A program made the translations under genes and the position numbers. The notes under the pieces are model-generated. The model did not search any database and was not told where the DNA came from. It was given only the letters and a program-made list of their open reading frames with translations. From a bacterium (lineage in GTDB: Bacteria > CAYTYR01 > UBA6262): a stretch of 37,587 nt of DNA. Location: NCBI GenBank assembly GCA_028712895.1, contig JAQTPL010000017.1, forward strand, positions 1 through 37,587, written 5' to 3'. Of the stretch, positions 20,951 to 27,504 are shown one piece after another (the first letter of the stretch is position 1; every line of letters starts with the position of its first letter).

Positions 20951-22777
20951 TTATTTGCTGCCGATAGCTTCCAGTACGCTTTGCGCTTTAGATACCAGCT
21001 TTTCGGCGTTCTCATTGGTCGGGTCCAGGGCTAATATCTGGTTACACCTGTTTATGGTCTCCTGGTATTGGCCTTTTAAGTAAAGATCCGCAGCCTTGTA
21101 ATAGAGCTGGTTGATCTGCTTTTGATCCACTTTCCTGGTCACCTGGGTCTGCTCTTCTTGTTTTATTTTGTCCAGATACCTTGCTGCCGCATTATTACCC
21201 GGATCCAGCCGCAGCGCGGCCCGGAACTCTTTTACGGCGTTGGCCTTATCGCCGTTTTTATATAACAGTTCGCCATTGTCGTAATGATCTTTGATCAATC
21301 CTTTGATCTTAAGACGTGTATCAGTGCTCTTCTTGTTGGCGGTTAAATGTTCCGGTTTAATCCGCAAGACCTTCTGGTATTCATTCAGGGCTTCGTTATA
21401 TCTTTCTTTATCATACAGGTCATCCCCGGCCCTAATGATGTTGTTTATCCTCACTATTTCATTTTCTTTTTCCCTTTCGTTCAGGATCGCCCGGTCTTCC
21501 TTGGCCAATTTTTCATTGATCTTGGTTATATATTCCTTAGCCCTCTCATTAGCCGGATCCAACTTAGCCACTTCTTTCCACTGTTCCATGGAATCTACTA
21601 GTTTGCCGTCGGCAAACAGGACGTAAGCTTTGCTCACGTGTTGTTCGATTAGTTTCCGGTTGACGATAGCATCGAGCTCTGCGGATACCTTATTTACTTT
21701 ATCCTGGATCTCTTTGTTTTGCGGGTCCCAGATGAGCGCTTTGTCCCACTCTCCTAAGGCCAGGGCGTATTTCTGGCTATTATAGAGTTCAGCCCCTGAT
21801 TGATCGAGACCTGCGACTTTCTCTTTTACCGCCTCCCGGCTGTATTGCGCTTCACCAATATAGCCAAACCGGTACGTGACGCTGATCCGGTTACCGAACC
21901 CGAGAGCATGCGGCACTGCGGCGTAATCCAGGGTAAACCCTGCCACTGTTATCCCCAAACCGCAGGTTATATTATTATTTATATCCTTACCGATCCGGGC
22001 CGCATAATTATTGCCGAACCAGTACTCTACCCCAAAATGGTTCTTGGCCTGGATAAAGCTGGAGTAATCAACATCTGCGGCCAAGACCAGTTTATCCTCC
22101 CAGGCGGTTTGCGGCAGGTCAGTTCTATAGGCTACACCGAACTTTGAATAGAAAGGATATTTATCTTTTTCAGTGTTCAATTTAGGCGCCGGGGCCATTA
22201 AATTCTGGAAATTAGCCGCCGCGGTTAATTTATTACCGAGGAAATGGTACAGTACCCCGGCATCGATACCGAAAGCTGAAGCAGAATAAATGTCCGCTGA
22301 TTCAGTCACAGACTTTAAGGTAGTGCCAACAGATAAGCGGCTGGTTAGTTTAGTGGCGTAGGAGAGCAGCAGAGCTTTCTGGCTGAAACTAAAATTAATC
22401 GGTTCACTATCCACTGTTTCGCGGCGTTGGAAATTAACGCTGGTAAGGGTGATCATGCTGGCAGCGATGGTACCGTATTTTTCCAGAGGATAGGCAAAAC
22501 CGATAAAATTATAATTGGTCTCTTCCCAAAGCGGTGCGTAAAAAGTATTCAGTTCATATTTCAGCAGTTGGGCCAGACCGGCAGGATTATAATAGGCGGC
22601 TGCGGCATTATCGCTGATCGCGGTAAAACTATTACCCATACCCAGGGCCCTGGCACTGGGACCCAGATGCAGGAAACTGCCTGGCTGACCGCCACTCGCC
22701 GCCTGCCCCAGGGCCAGCCCGGGCCAGAGCATGAGCAAGATCATAATGCCAGTAATACTATGTGCTTTACAACACAT
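20951..22777 (-). CDS. PorV/PorQ-like outer-membrane barrel fused to TPR repeats
   Basis: 608 aa from the ATG at 22777, preceded by AAGGCGG; the 12 codons upstream lack a ribosome site. After the signal peptide the mature part begins with SARALGMGNSFTAISDNAAAAYYNPAGLAQL (split here only for family comparison), the signature start of PorV/PorQ/UPF0164 barrels. Alternating beta-strand sequence continues to about residue 320. The rest (about 325-608) contains at least four TPR units, e.g. AELYNSQKYALALGEWDKAL and GNNAAARYLDKI-type segments, presumably periplasmic. It may be a secretion or assembly platform in the outer membrane. It heads an operon with a FlgD-like protein and an adenylate cyclase, with its own promoter at 22932-22960 and a long leader. 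Confidence 0.82.
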   Translation of the reverse strand: MCCKAHSITGIMILLMLWPGLALGQAASGGQPGSFLHLGPSARALGMGNSFTAISDNAAAAYYNPAGLAQLLKYELNTFYAPLWEETNYNFIGFAYPLEKYGTIAASMITLTSVNFQRRETVDSEPINFSFSQKALLLSYATKLTSRLSVGTTLKSVTESADIYSASAFGIDAGVLYHFLGNKLTAAANFQNLMAPAPKLNTEKDKYPFYSKFGVAYRTDLPQTAWEDKLVLAADVDYSSFIQAKNHFGVEYWFGNNYAARIGKDINNNITCGLGITVAGFTLDYAAVPHALGFGNRISVTYRFGYIGEAQYSREAVKEKVAGLDQSGAELYNSQKYALALGEWDKALIWDPQNKEIQDKVNKVSAELDAIVNRKLIEQHVSKAYVLFADGKLVDSMEQWKEVAKLDPANERAKEYITKINEKLAKEDRAILNEREKENEIVRINNIIRAGDDLYDKERYNEALNEYQKVLRIKPEHLTANKKSTDTRLKIKGLIKDHYDNGELLYKNGDKANAVKEFRAALRLDPGNNAAARYLDKIKQEEQTQVTRKVDQKQINQLYYKAADLYLKGQYQETINRCNQILALDPTNENAEKLVSKAQSVLEAIGSK

Positions 22778-22840
22778 GATGTACCGCCTTCTGATTGTAA
22801 TATTCCAACTCATCTGAAAAAAAAGCCACCTGCATTAAAC

Positions 22841-22984: not shown

Positions 22985-24001
22985 TTAAAAAGCAAGGGTT
23001 AGCCCTAAACTATAGTAGGAGCTGGTATCTTTATAAACCTCCCGGTATAAATTATAACTGGTATTCAAAATAATCCAGTCATTGAGATAATAATCAAGAC
23101 CCAATGTATAGGAATCAGCGCTAACACCGGAAACCTCATAAAAATCATCCATTATACTATTAAGCGTACCGTCACTTGGTGTGCTATTTTCATTAAGGGT
23201 GAATTGCAGTACTGCGGCATGGAGGTAGCCGGCGCTCACGGTCCAGCGAGATAAAAAGTTCCGGCTGATCAGGACCTCATAACTGAACTTTGGGAATCCT
23301 CCCAGGCCTGGGAAGAGGTTAAAGATCCGGGCATTACTTTGCCTGGCGCCGGCGTCATACAGCACTATATCTTCTTCAATATCAGGGCTGTATGTATAAT
23401 CCGAATATCCCAGATACAATGAGGTATCAGCATAGAAGATTTCAGTAACACCCAGGGTCCAATTGGCCTGCTTAATGGTTTCGCTGGTATTTTTAGCTGC
23501 TACAGTAGCCTGCCGGGATCCTCCACGCCTGGTCTGATAATAAACAGTAAAACCTTCTGTATGTACATCATAGACATGATTTATTAAACTATAATCAAGA
23601 TCAATAATTGTTTGGAAATTAGTACTACGCGAAGATTTTTCATCCAGCCAACCATGGGAAATCATAGTCGTCCCCAGGCCAAAACCATCAGCTTGATAGC
23701 TTCCTACTTTCGGCGTGAGGAAAATATTACCCCGGGCGCTGAAAGAATTTGTCATCCTTATGTTCACTCCGGTATGATATACTTGCGTAGAGTCAGTATT
23801 AAGATCAGAATCGCTATAACTATAGCTGCAATTCAGGTCCAGCTTCTTAGTTAAACCTAACCTGACGGCAGTATAATTAGCCAGGTAGTCATCCGAGCCG
23901 GTAGTCACCGTAGTGCTTATCCCCACTCCGGCATATACCTTTGTTGGCAGCAGAACCTGTAACGCTGCCAGCCCAAAAAAAAATATAGCTGTTCTGCTCA
24001 T
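22985..24001 (-). CDS. Outer-membrane beta-barrel protein, last gene of the sigma-factor operon
   Basis: 338 aa. A signal peptide (about 1-24, ending VYAG) precedes alternating hydrophobic/polar beta-strands throughout, with many aromatic residues at strand ends (e.g. LDLNCSYSYSD, FSYEVLISRNFLSRW) and a C-terminal SLGLTLAF ending in Phe, the classical barrel insertion signal. No specific porin family is recognised. Its ATG overlaps the stop of the DUF3106 gene by one base (TAATG), so it is translationally coupled to the sigma, anti-sigma, acidic protein and DUF3106 genes. It may be a target whose folding is monitored, or a component of the sensing system. That is inference. Confidence 0.8.
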   Translation of the reverse strand: MSRTAIFFFGLAALQVLLPTKVYAGVGISTTVTTGSDDYLANYTAVRLGLTKKLDLNCSYSYSDSDLNTDSTQVYHTGVNIRMTNSFSARGNIFLTPKVGSYQADGFGLGTTMISHGWLDEKSSRSTNFQTIIDLDYSLINHVYDVHTEGFTVYYQTRRGGSRQATVAAKNTSETIKQANWTLGVTEIFYADTSLYLGYSDYTYSPDIEEDIVLYDAGARQSNARIFNLFPGLGGFPKFSYEVLISRNFLSRWTVSAGYLHAAVLQFTLNENSTPSDGTLNSIMDDFYEVSGVSADSYTLGLDYYLNDWIILNTSYNLYREVYKDTSSYYSLGLTLAF

Positions 24002-24498
24002 TATTTATTTCTCGCTTTGTTTTGTTTCATCCTTTGCTGGATGACCGCTTGCCGCTGAGCCGGCGGTAATTGCCGGAATTTCCGCATTTTTTGCTTCAGG
24101 TCCTGCTGCTGCTGCGGGGTTAATTGCTGCCAGCGGCGGTAATTCTGCCTGATCTGCCGCTGTTCCTGCGGACTTAGTTTTTGCCAACGCTGGTAATTTT
24201 CTTTAAGCGTTTTTCTTTCTTTCGGAGAAAGTTGCTGGAAACGCTTATAATTACTTCTCATCCTGGTTTGTTCCTCCGGCGGCAATTCCTTAAACTTTTG
24301 CAACCGGGCTTTGATCTCCTTTTTCTGCTCCGGACTTAATTTTTGCCAATTCTGATAGGTCTGCCGCAGCTGCTGTTTCTGTTCCAAGGTCATGTTTTGC
24401 CAGCGTTCCTGGTTAGTGCTCTGCCCCCAGAGCACACCGGCAACCAGCAGGAAAACCGCCAGTAAAAACATTCTTTTCCGTAATTTAGTTATTTTCAT
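24001..24498 (-). CDS. DUF3106 periplasmic protein of seven 18-residue repeats
   Basis: 165 aa from the ATG at 24498, which has GGGAG six bases upstream; seven earlier codons are open but lack a ribosome site. A signal peptide (about 1-25) is followed by seven exact-length 18-residue repeats (34-51, 52-69, 70-87, 88-105, 106-123, 124-141, 142-159). The pattern is xxLSPEQxxxLKxxYxxW/F, as in DUF3106. The protein is strongly basic and Gln-rich, presumably a helical solenoid in the periplasm. The gene overlaps the small acidic gene by 14 bp and the barrel gene by 1 bp. Some DUF3106 genes are known beside ECF sigma/anti-sigma genes, but the function is unknown. Charge complementarity with the acidic neighbours suggests binding. 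Confidence 0.85.
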   Translation of the reverse strand: MKITKLRKRMFLLAVFLLVAGVLWGQSTNQERWQNMTLEQKQQLRQTYQNWQKLSPEQKKEIKARLQKFKELPPEEQTRMRSNYKRFQQLSPKERKTLKENYQRWQKLSPQEQRQIRQNYRRWQQLTPQQQQDLKQKMRKFRQLPPAQRQAVIQQRMKQNKARNK

Positions 24499-24721
24499 CA
24501 GTTTCTCCCTTATAACCATCTGCTTCTACAGGTACTGTCGTAAACAAAACATCATAGTGTTCCATCAGATCCAAATTATCGACAAATTCATAATCCATTA
24601 AAAGATCAATCTCGTCAATAATCTCCTGATCCATTTCATCATGTGTGGCCAATACCAGCGGTATGTTTAGAAAAGTCACCTGTATTAAGATCATTAGGAG
24701 CAATCTGCCGGAATTACGCAT
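24485..24721 (-). CDS. Small acidic secreted protein with anti-sigma-tail-like motif
   Basis: 78 aa. A signal peptide is likely (about 1-25, cleavage after VLA), leaving about 53 residues rich in Asp/Glu. Residues 35-56 (DEIDLLMDYEFVDNLDLM core) match, in spacing and in Tyr, Leu and acidic positions, the C-terminal periplasmic tail of the adjacent anti-sigma factor (129-150, ELELIENYELIQDLELLENL). The ATG follows the anti-sigma stop by two bases, with AGAGGA as ribosome site. The 3' end overlaps the DUF3106 gene. It may compete with, or oligomerise like, the anti-sigma tail. No described family is recognised; coupling on both sides makes it a real gene. Confidence 0.78.
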   Translation of the reverse strand: MRNSGRLLLMILIQVTFLNIPLVLATHDEMDQEIIDEIDLLMDYEFVDNLDLMEHYDVLFTTVPVEADGYKGETDENN

Positions 24722-24723
24722 TA

Positions 24724-25200
24724 TTATCCTCTCAGTTGCTCCGCTTCTTGTAAATTTTCCAGTAGCTCCAGGTCCTGGATCAATTCATAGTTCTCGATCA
24801 GCTCCAACTCCTGCACTATCGGCAGGTCAGCTGAAGTCATTTCTGACCCGTGTCGGGACCAACGGGGACTGGAGATAATAATTAACAGCAGTATAAGTGC
24901 TCCGGCCAATGCCGGCACTAACCTGCGCGGCGCAAGAAAACCTCGCCACCGGGATAGCGATTCTTTTTCGGCAGACACTGCCTGATACACCTGATGCTGA
25001 AAATCCTGCCAAAAGAAAGAGGATTTTTCCTTTTCCACCTGCTCCTTAGCAACCAGAGTTAACGTCTTTTTGATCTGCCCATATGTTTGCCGGCAAGCAA
25101 CGCAGGTCTCCAGGTGCCCGGCTATTTTTGACATAGCTGGCGAATCAAGTTCCTGGTAGTAGTAATTAACTAATGACCGTTGGATCTTTTTGCACTCCAT
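24724..25200 (-). CDS. zf-HC2 membrane anti-sigma factor
   Basis: 158 aa. The N-terminal anti-sigma zinc-finger domain has Cys3, His29, Cys33 and Cys36 (HLETCVAC), the usual HxxxCxxC pattern. A linker leads to one membrane helix at about 93-110. The periplasmic tail (111-158) is short and acidic, with the quasi-repeat ELELIENYELIQDLELLENL at 131-150. It should hold the sigma factor encoded two bases upstream at the membrane until an envelope signal reaches the tail. The tail motif recurs in the next gene's secreted protein, suggesting a shared partner, perhaps the basic DUF3106 protein. A regulated-proteolysis site is not evident by eye. Confidence 0.88.
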   Translation of the reverse strand: MECKKIQRSLVNYYYQELDSPAMSKIAGHLETCVACRQTYGQIKKTLTLVAKEQVEKEKSSFFWQDFQHQVYQAVSAEKESLSRWRGFLAPRRLVPALAGALILLLIIISSPRWSRHGSEMTSADLPIVQELELIENYELIQDLELLENLQEAEQLRG

Positions 25201-25202
25201 AA

Positions 25203-25805
25203 CTATCGCTCCTTGAATTCTTTCAATACTTCCTGTAATCGCTGTACCGCCCTGAACAAATGGGATTTTACCGTACCCTCAGCCAAACCGGTAATGCCGG
25301 CTATTTCGTTTATCTTTAACTCTTCAAAATGCTTTAAAGCAAAAATTTCTTTCTGTTGCCGCGGTAAAGCCTGAAGTGCCTGTTCCAGCCGCAGTTTTAA
25401 TTTCTCATTATCGATCAATCTTTGCGGATCGCTATCCAGGCTTTGGTCTGGTATGCTGTTCTCCAAAGATTGTTCCTGGTCTTCATTTTGCCCCTCCGCC
25501 TGGCTGAAGTTGAAAGTAAACCGGCTAACCAGATACCGGTGCCGGTGGTAACTACGGCACAAGTTAAGTAAGATCTGGTAAAACCAGGTCTGGAAACTGG
25601 CTGTACCGCGAAAAGCATGTACATTTTTATAGACCCTGACAAAACCTTCCTGCGCCAAGTCTTCGGCGTCTTCCGGCCGGCTCACCAGGTGCAGGCAGAA
25701 ATAATAGGCCCTCTTCTGATATTTTTCCAGCAGCAGCCCGAAGGCTGCCTGGTCGCCGTTTTTGATCTTTTCAATTAGCTGTTGGTCTATATCCTTGCTT
25801 TCCAC
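25203..25805 (-). CDS. ECF-type RNA polymerase sigma factor (RpoE-like)
   Basis: 200 aa from the GTG at 25805, with GAGG six bases upstream. Region 2 spans about 22-92 (AFGLLLEKYQKRAY, EDAEDLAQEGFVRVYK, FQTWFYQILLNLCRSY). A variable acidic linker (100-130) leads to region 4 at about 136-190 (ALPRQQKEIFALKHFEELKINEIA and a helix-turn-helix ending EGTVKSHLFRAVQRL). No other domains. It directs polymerase to stress promoters and is controlled by the zf-HC2 anti-sigma factor two bases downstream. A candidate target is htrA, whose promoter equals the E. coli sigmaE consensus. The 124-bp gap upstream has an AGGTCT/AGACCT inverted repeat (25855-25880) but no convincing promoter. Confidence 0.93.
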   Translation of the reverse strand: MESKDIDQQLIEKIKNGDQAAFGLLLEKYQKRAYYFCLHLVSRPEDAEDLAQEGFVRVYKNVHAFRGTASFQTWFYQILLNLCRSYHRHRYLVSRFTFNFSQAEGQNEDQEQSLENSIPDQSLDSDPQRLIDNEKLKLRLEQALQALPRQQKEIFALKHFEELKINEIAGITGLAEGTVKSHLFRAVQRLQEVLKEFKER

Positions 25806-25854
25806 CTGCTACCTCATTAGACGCTAGAGCTAGATAATAGTTTACCCTGGGATT

Positions 25855-25929: not shown

Positions 25930-27504
25930 TTAATTTTCCAGTATCTTCTGGGTTGGCAGGGTAAAGATAAACCGGCTGCCGTCATGGATATCGCTTTCTA
26001 TCCTGATCGAGCCGCCATGGCCTTCGATGATCCTTTTAACCAGGGGCAAACCTAAACCAGCGCCTTCGGTCTGACCGGTGAAACTCTCTTCGATCTGATA
26101 AAACAGCTGGAAGATTTTCTCGCGTTCTTCTGGAGGAATGCCGGGACCATTATCGGCAATTGTGAACTCAACAGTTTGGGCAGACAAGTGACGGCAATTG
26201 AGGCGTATTTTAGTTTCTTTTTTGCCGGAAAATTTGATCGCATTATCAATCAGATTAAAGAATATATCTTTAATCTTTTCTTCATCACCATAAAGAACGG
26301 TAACCCCCTGACAAGACGCGTCAATTTCCAGAGTTACTCCTTTTTGTACCATGACTTCCCGAAAATTAGCGTCAATAGCTTTAAGTATCTCTTGCAGGTC
26401 AACTGCTTTACAAGTCAAGTCCAAATCCGTTCCTACAACTATAGTGAACGCCAGGAGCTTATTGATCAGATCGACTAACTGCTGGCCTTGCCGGTCAATA
26501 TCCTGGAGAGCGTTTAGCTGGAACTCGTCGAACGTTGGCTCTTTTTTTTGCTGCATCATCAGCATACCGGAATATCCCAATATACTGGTTAAAGGAGTAC
26601 GTAATTTATGAGAAATAGCAGAGAGGAAATTTTGTTTCAGAAACCCTTCTTTTTTAGCTTCAGTAATATCCCGCAGCAGGATAATATAACCTAAGACCTT
26701 TTTTTGCTCATCATTGATCCTGGTCATGGCGCATTCCAGGAAATAGTTTTTACCCTCGCGTCTTTTCATTTCGCAGCTGGCGGAGGAATGGGCATGGAGT
26801 TCCGGCAATAGAGAAGAAAAGTCATAATATCCCCGCAAGGTGTCCAGGAAATGATGCCGGAGCAGCTGGCTTTTTTCCATTCCCAGGAGTCGTACCGCTG
26901 ACTCATTCAGCATGATTACCTGATAATTGGCATCAGTTACTACCGCGCCGTCACTCATTCCTTTAAAAACAGCTTCGATCTCTTCCTTTTTTTCCCGGAC
27001 TTCCTGGAACAGGCGGGCATTTTCAATCGCTACGGCTGCCTGGGCAGCCAAGGCTTCCAGGATGTGCTGGTCTTCCGCGGTGAAGTCCCCGTTATCTTTT
27101 TTATTAATGACTTCCATAACCCCGCTGATCTTATCCTTATAGATCAACGGCACGCACATCATAGACCTGGTCTTAAAACTTGATTTGGAATCAGCCCGTG
27201 AGCTCCAGCGGGTATCCTTTTCGACGTCATTGACGATGAGAGCCTTTCTTTCCCGGGCCACCCAACCGGCAATGCCTTCCCCGATCTTCAGCCGGATCTG
27301 TTTTACCTGCTCGCCTTTCTCTCCCAGGGCAATATCAAAGACCAGCTCATTGGTCGCCGGGTCCAGCAGCATCAGGCTGCCGGCTTCAGCCTTCACTACC
27401 ACTGCTGCCTGGTCCACTATAATAGTCAACAATTTATCCAGGTCCAGGGTTGAATTCAAGATCTTATTTATTTCCAGCAATTGTGCTAAATCATTGGCAT
27501 CCAT
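25930..27504 (-). CDS. Soluble GAF-PAS sensor histidine kinase
   Basis: 524 aa with no membrane segment. GAF domain (about 15-165), PAS (about 175-285), HisKA with phospho-acceptor His299, HATPase_c (about 405-520) with N-box NLIDNAIKFS, G1 DNGPGIPPEE and G2 GAGLGLPLV. The H-box reads SHKLRTPL: the acidic residue normally after His is Lys. That residue often acts as a general base in autophosphorylation, so activity may be altered, although such variants occur in predicted kinases. It is the last gene of the long sensor/proteolysis operon, 8 bp after the archaemetzincin-like gene. The two free receivers at 32095-32846 are its possible partners. Confidence 0.9.
   Translation of the reverse strand: MDANDLAQLLEINKILNSTLDLDKLLTIIVDQAAVVVKAEAGSLMLLDPATNELVFDIALGEKGEQVKQIRLKIGEGIAGWVARERKALIVNDVEKDTRWSSRADSKSSFKTRSMMCVPLIYKDKISGVMEVINKKDNGDFTAEDQHILEALAAQAAVAIENARLFQEVREKKEEIEAVFKGMSDGAVVTDANYQVIMLNESAVRLLGMEKSQLLRHHFLDTLRGYYDFSSLLPELHAHSSASCEMKRREGKNYFLECAMTRINDEQKKVLGYIILLRDITEAKKEGFLKQNFLSAISHKLRTPLTSILGYSGMLMMQQKKEPTFDEFQLNALQDIDRQGQQLVDLINKLLAFTIVVGTDLDLTCKAVDLQEILKAIDANFREVMVQKGVTLEIDASCQGVTVLYGDEEKIKDIFFNLIDNAIKFSGKKETKIRLNCRHLSAQTVEFTIADNGPGIPPEEREKIFQLFYQIEESFTGQTEGAGLGLPLVKRIIEGHGGSIRIESDIHDGSRFIFTLPTQKILEN

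Follow-up and report, generated by a model that had tools for sequence, protein, structure and literature searches.

The stretch of DNA analysed here (hereafter the window) comprises 37,587 nucleotides of a bacterial contig (JAQTPL010000017.1 of assembly GCA_028712895.1). Between positions 22985 and 25805 it carries five open reading frames (ORFs), all on the minus strand, which specify in order of transcription an extracytoplasmic function (ECF) sigma factor (25203–25805; 200 aa, GTG start), a membrane-anchored anti-sigma factor of class I, the zinc-binding type (24724–25200; 158 aa), a small secreted acidic protein (24485–24721; 78 aa), a secreted basic DUF3106 protein with seven 18-residue repeats (24001–24498) and a putative outer-membrane beta-barrel (22985–24001; 338 aa). 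Consecutive genes are spaced by +2, +2, -14 and -1 bases. An earlier note on this DNA had described the five genes with these strands and gaps, and we confirmed all of them in the sequence. The mechanically defined DUF3106 ORF begins at 24519, but the gene itself probably starts with the ATG at 24498. Among named relatives, metagenome assemblies labelled Elusimicrobia (UBA6262; NC_groundwater_1672) are the nearest. Because the identical five-gene order recurs in three relatives (G001, G002 and G004), and the order is found again in other phyla, the operon is more than a chance arrangement. Judged from its gene neighbourhoods, it would be a widespread and apparently unstudied envelope-sensing switch, in which the periplasmic tail of the anti-sigma factor and the acidic protein are both tied to DUF3106.

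The sigma factor possesses regions 2 and 4 only, recognized by Pfam Sigma70_r2 [1.3e-17] and r4_2 [9e-17], both above cut-off, and by TIGR02937. Its presumed antagonist matches zf-HC2 slightly below the family cut-off [6e-4, Pfam], its zinc motif H29xxxC33xxC36 (25093–25116, minus strand) is intact in the sequence, and a profile of its family matches RsiW [1.2e-10] as well as ChrR and RsrA. A single predicted transmembrane helix (24865–24921, minus strand) shows a hydropathy peak of 2.4 at residue 94. By these signatures the pair fits an ECF sigma factor with a class I zinc-type anti-sigma factor. Anti-sigma factors of this class sequester ECF sigma factors until proteolysis or a conformational change brings about release (PMC7406223).

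Beyond the helix the anti-sigma factor ends in a periplasmic tail containing three acidic hexads, LELIEN YELIQD LELLEN (24754–24807, minus strand), which we propose as the docking site for the DUF3106 protein. The tails of 21 loci align without gaps across the three hexads, with the consensus [N/D/H]-hydrophobic-[D/E]-hydrophobic-hydrophobic-[E/Q]. Positions 2, 4 and 5 are hydrophobic in 21/21 tails, position 3 is Asp or Glu in 86–95% and position 1 is mostly Asn, Asp or His. A profile was built from anti-sigma tails lying beside DUF3106 genes, with no acidic ORF included. It matched 23 of 386 genomes, and 22 of these 23 carry DUF3106, which is present in only 38 of the 386. All matches fall within approximately 1 kb of a DUF3106 gene except for two borderline ones (E 0.005 and 0.0098). 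The matches beside DUF3106 are partly circular, given the training set; the near-absence elsewhere is not. The idea that such a tail is a general feature of anti-sigma factors was rejected, as 347 of the 348 genomes that lack DUF3106 show no such tail at the chosen threshold. Genome G003, which belongs to the same family as the window genome, lacks both DUF3106 and the tail motif. In the phylum of genome G024 (L032, L069 and L075–L079) the anti-sigma domain has no HxxxCxxC zinc motif and keeps the hexad tail.

The acidic protein has a signal-peptide-like start, a net charge of -15 and no match to any Pfam family. It contains hexads of the same kind, IDLLMD YEFVDN LDLMEH (24554–24610, minus strand), and in phmmer searches the acidic and anti-sigma proteins cross-match in the window and in its relatives. 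The resemblance depends on residue order (z = 6.4 against shuffles in the window), and in 14 hexad systems tested the acidic protein resembles its own tail with z values of 3 to 8. The tail-only profile, moreover, detects a separate acidic ORF in six genomes, and in one phylum an unusual variant, MYEHMDMYEHM, is common to tail and acidic protein. Cognate pairs of tail and acidic protein outscore permuted ones (p 1.5e-4 overall and 0.014 within the hexad group), p values from which shared ancestry is incompletely removed. By these comparisons the small protein duplicates the anti-sigma tail in secreted form. That it might be a chance ORF was rejected, since it is conserved across lineages. The Pfam family LED_rpt (PF20854) is weakly matched by 5 of 15 acidic proteins, the best E value being 0.0028. 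The earlier note, which had cast this protein as a competitor, had missed its likeness to the hexad tail; the likeness strengthens the proposal, while the competition itself is something that we infer.

The DUF3106 protein is a clear member of its family [PF11304; 2.6e-27, 95.8 bits vs a gathering cut-off of 24.3]. AlphaFold2 folds it, with a pLDDT of 96, into seven helices of 15–16 residues, one per 18-residue repeat, and we predict with high confidence an alpha-solenoid with one helix per repeat. Foldseek found no match to this model in the PDB below E = 5. Weak sequence matches in the PDB to toxofilin and Phactr were taken as chance. The repeat length of 18 is exactly that of three tail hexads. 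In a frequent alternative form, read from sequence, a single protein carries a FecR-like periplasmic domain followed by DUF3106 repeats (L031:5469–6740, L033:3–1280), and one locus possesses an extra secreted Spy-like helical protein (L063:2485–3081) between the anti-sigma factor and the FecR-DUF3106 protein.

Conservation was assessed in 94 non-redundant DUF3106 loci, drawn from the 386 genomes (38 carriers) and from a named collection (58 loci); the counts represent a hit-based sample uncorrected for phylogeny. A same-strand ECF sigma gene lies upstream in 72/94, and a membrane protein bearing the characteristic tail is present in 61/94. A separate small secreted acidic ORF was called in 38 loci by script and in approximately 45 by eye, the script having made false calls (L030, L036, L125 and L150) and missed others (L034, L039, L060 and L062 among them). 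All five genes occur together in 7/94 loci by script, or in eight if L127 is counted by eye, the full set being found in the window lineage, a Goldiibacteriota assembly (L126), Bdellovibrio (L127) and two Gammaproteobacteria (L132 and L143). The co-occurrence of the acidic ORF and DUF3106 with the sigma pair, which the earlier note had predicted, is conserved, and the conserved gene order over many lineages supports its proposal of an ECF envelope-sensing module.

DUF3106 and the acidic ORF are both tied to the module by gene order; the bridging of the acidic anti-sigma tail to the barrel by DUF3106, which the note had suggested, is no more than conjectural. Because a barrel-like gene immediately follows DUF3106 in only 11 of the 94 loci, the barrel is a frequent passenger or partner and no core part. 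The candidate in the window has a hydrophobic N-terminus, a C-terminal Phe and no match to any Pfam family. Its model is all-beta with a pLDDT of 53, too uncertain for naming its family, and gives weak Foldseek matches to outer-membrane barrels. Homologues follow DUF3106 in L029, L033, L063 and L147. Sequence comparison links the barrels of the window, L033/L063 and L147, and that of L147 to L127, the remaining ones being too diverged; those of the full-set window lineage, L126 and L127 may be homologous only in part.

Upstream of the sigma gene we identified a predicted autoregulated ECF promoter, GTAAAC-N16-CGTCTA (25818–25845, minus strand). The sequence GTAAAC-N16-CGTCT sits 40–47 bases ahead of the sigma start in four genomes of its class, the window genome, G001, G002 and G004, with none expected in shuffles of the window, and the same site precedes the sigma gene in L060, L061, L065 and L080. 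In a wider set it was found before the sigma gene in 10/75 loci (seven or eight without duplicates) vs 0.5 in shuffles; in 11 genomes of other phyla it occurs at background level only. The refined motif, GTAAAY-N2-TT-N11-GCGTC, has two exact sites in the window genome, one before the sigma operon and the other before the gene for a 204-aa secreted Gln/Lys-rich protein, and the latter site is kept in all four genomes. A site with one mismatch lies 42 bases before the gene for a 316-aa lipoprotein, and the remaining one-mismatch sites lie inside ORFs. In the window genome, then, three sites lie directly upstream of ORF starts, and each of them precedes a gene for a secreted or envelope protein. 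The relative of the lipoprotein in G004 has an exact promoter site. That in G090, a member of another phylum, directly follows DUF3106 [2.6e-61], which independently confirms that these genes go together. Since the promoter also precedes the genes for the Gln/Lys-rich protein and the lipoprotein, autoregulation is probable, as is a small envelope regulon. Gln/Lys/Glu-rich helical proteins of approximately 204 aa, without a Pfam family, are found in G000:C15 near 24821 (L179) and in L173, L178 and L176. The lipoprotein family, which likewise has no Pfam match, is represented in L193 (G000:C52), L180 and L040:6147–7163.

Of the known systems, RpoE/RseA/RseB shares with this operon an ECF sigma factor, a membrane anti-sigma factor with a periplasmic tail, a soluble periplasmic partner encoded in the operon, an autoregulated promoter and an envelope regulon. 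It differs in its partner, which is here a DUF3106 alpha-solenoid and not RseB (RseB/MucB was not matched by any operon product in Pfam), and in lacking the three-hexad tail, the adjoining gene for a secreted tail copy and the barrel gene that is often part of the operon. CnrYXH and the Metal_resist/LTXXQ sensor systems are likewise built of three parts, the ECF pair and an adjacent helical protein of the periplasm, but DUF3106 shows no fold match to the solved structures of Spy, CpxP or CnrX, and CnrY, by the title of a work cited in PMC7406223, belongs to a different structural class from the zinc-type anti-sigma factor found here. The window anti-sigma factor resembles RsiW, ChrR and RsrA in its N-terminal domain, whereas the libraries searched contain no counterpart of its periplasmic tail. 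The same gene order is seen in proteobacterial clusters composed of sigma factor, DUF3619, DUF3106 and RDD genes, but their tails are short and variant (e.g. LDFYQDLEFYNWL) and many are without the three-hexad motif. DUF3619 (PF12279) was not matched by the window anti-sigma factor in the Pfam search. Because DUF3619 occupies the anti-sigma position ahead of DUF3106 (above cut-off in L150, L168, L155, L146 and L137), our analysis suggests that it is the Beta- and Gammaproteobacterial counterpart of the window protein, and is a family of anti-sigma factors.

The reading which we favour, and hold to be somewhat better than an even proposition as a whole, is that of an autoregulated ECF switch with DUF3106 as periplasmic co-regulator and the acidic tail copy as its competitor. 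The class I anti-sigma factor would retain the sigma factor in the cytoplasm while exposing its tail of three acidic, hydrophobic hexads in the periplasm. The basic DUF3106 solenoid would dock on this tail, and the small acidic protein, as a soluble secreted copy of the tail, would compete for DUF3106. By analogy with RseB on RseA, a periplasmic brake in which the soluble partner of a class I anti-sigma factor is a negative regulator (PMC8103513), DUF3106 on the tail would keep the anti-sigma factor intact. Envelope damage would draw DUF3106 off, the anti-sigma factor would then be lost, and the freed sigma factor would transcribe its own operon together with the genes for the Gln/Lys-rich protein and the lipoprotein. 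The decoy, made along with DUF3106, would set the amount of free DUF3106 available for switching the system off again, and the barrel might be a regulated client or an outer-membrane partner. Among the proposed steps of binding, competition, sign and signal, the sign is the least certain.

Several points weigh against this scheme. The opposite charges of the two proteins in themselves prove nothing. Acidic proteins of the Gammaproteobacteria and desulfuromonads show no significant similarity to the tail (z 0 to 1.4), the proteobacterial type carrying another motif, LEFLxFLxEW. Some DUF3106 genes, for example in Polynucleobacter, have no same-strand sigma gene upstream. Roughly half of the loci, finally, are without a separate acidic ORF, and the decoy is therefore not essential.

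The alternative that fares best retains the same parts and inverts the sign: DUF3106 on the tail would activate, opening or exposing the anti-sigma factor, and the acidic protein would provide negative feedback by soaking up DUF3106 once the system is induced. It rests on the same conservation evidence, and the induction of all parts together from one promoter would suit such feedback. The known soluble periplasmic partner, RseB, is nevertheless a negative regulator (PMC8103513), and we regard the inverted scheme as a minority possibility, though one to be taken seriously. Less probable still is that the hexad tail is a recognition or degradation element for a protease, with the acidic protein diverting the site-1 protease as a decoy and DUF3106 being a mere product of the regulon, such as a periplasmic chaperone. 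Proteolysis does inactivate many class I anti-sigma factors (PMC7406223), and other secreted helical proteins belong to the regulon. It would be odd, however, for a general protease target to track DUF3106 as closely as the tail profile does, and among the conserved neighbours in the loci examined there was no protease gene. We think it unlikely, and rather more so, that DUF3106 joins with the acidic protein in a structural or chaperone complex made simply as part of the regulon, and that the likeness to the tail stems from ancestry and has no function in regulation; other products of the same regulon, namely the barrel, the lipoprotein and the Gln/Lys-rich protein, would be non-regulatory too, but the tail itself is strongly conserved and linked to DUF3106 even in loci without an acidic ORF. 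A role for DUF3106 as a sensor of metals or misfolded proteins, in the manner of CnrYXH, CpxP or Spy, seems quite improbable, for in spite of the similar layout of sigma factor, anti-sigma factor and periplasmic helical protein, a weak Metal_resist match [0.0016, Pfam, below cut-off] and LTPEQ-like motifs, the 18-residue single-helix repeats differ from such sensors and the lack of a PDB fold match for a model of pLDDT 96 led us to reject kinship with Spy, CpxP and CnrX.

With the favoured switch in mind, we suggest more tentatively, at rather less than even confidence, that the operon exemplifies an undescribed class of ECF module found in many phyla, a periplasmic titration switch in which a DUF3106 solenoid reads a three-hexad tail and a secreted paralogue of that tail sets the threshold. 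The components are of known kinds; the arrangement of tail, decoy and solenoid is without description in the literature searched. Nor did that literature, which did not include the large ECF re-classification, yield a mention of DUF3106, PF11304 or DUF3619. The association of DUF3106 with ECF sigma factors may already be on record in the re-classification, as a neighbour, its mechanism not. The scheme would give a function hypothesis to the abundant DUF3106 and to its anti-sigma partners, DUF3619 included, linked by one simple motif. It would also introduce a control principle, the export of a mimic of the anti-sigma factor's own sensory tail, for which we found no description in the same literature. 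The module is not confined to metagenome assemblies, being present in named isolates such as Malonomonas rubra DSM 5091 and Luteibacter.

Two genes adjoin the operon and were not counted as part of it, a PorV-like TPR gene (20951–22813) approximately 170 bases downstream, and a histidine kinase gene (25930–27504) upstream, ahead of the sigma promoter. Elsewhere in the window, positions 215–1798 hold a tandem array of three type IV pilin-like genes, nearly identical and of 165 aa each; a fourth pilin gene and genes for pilus assembly lie upstream of them.

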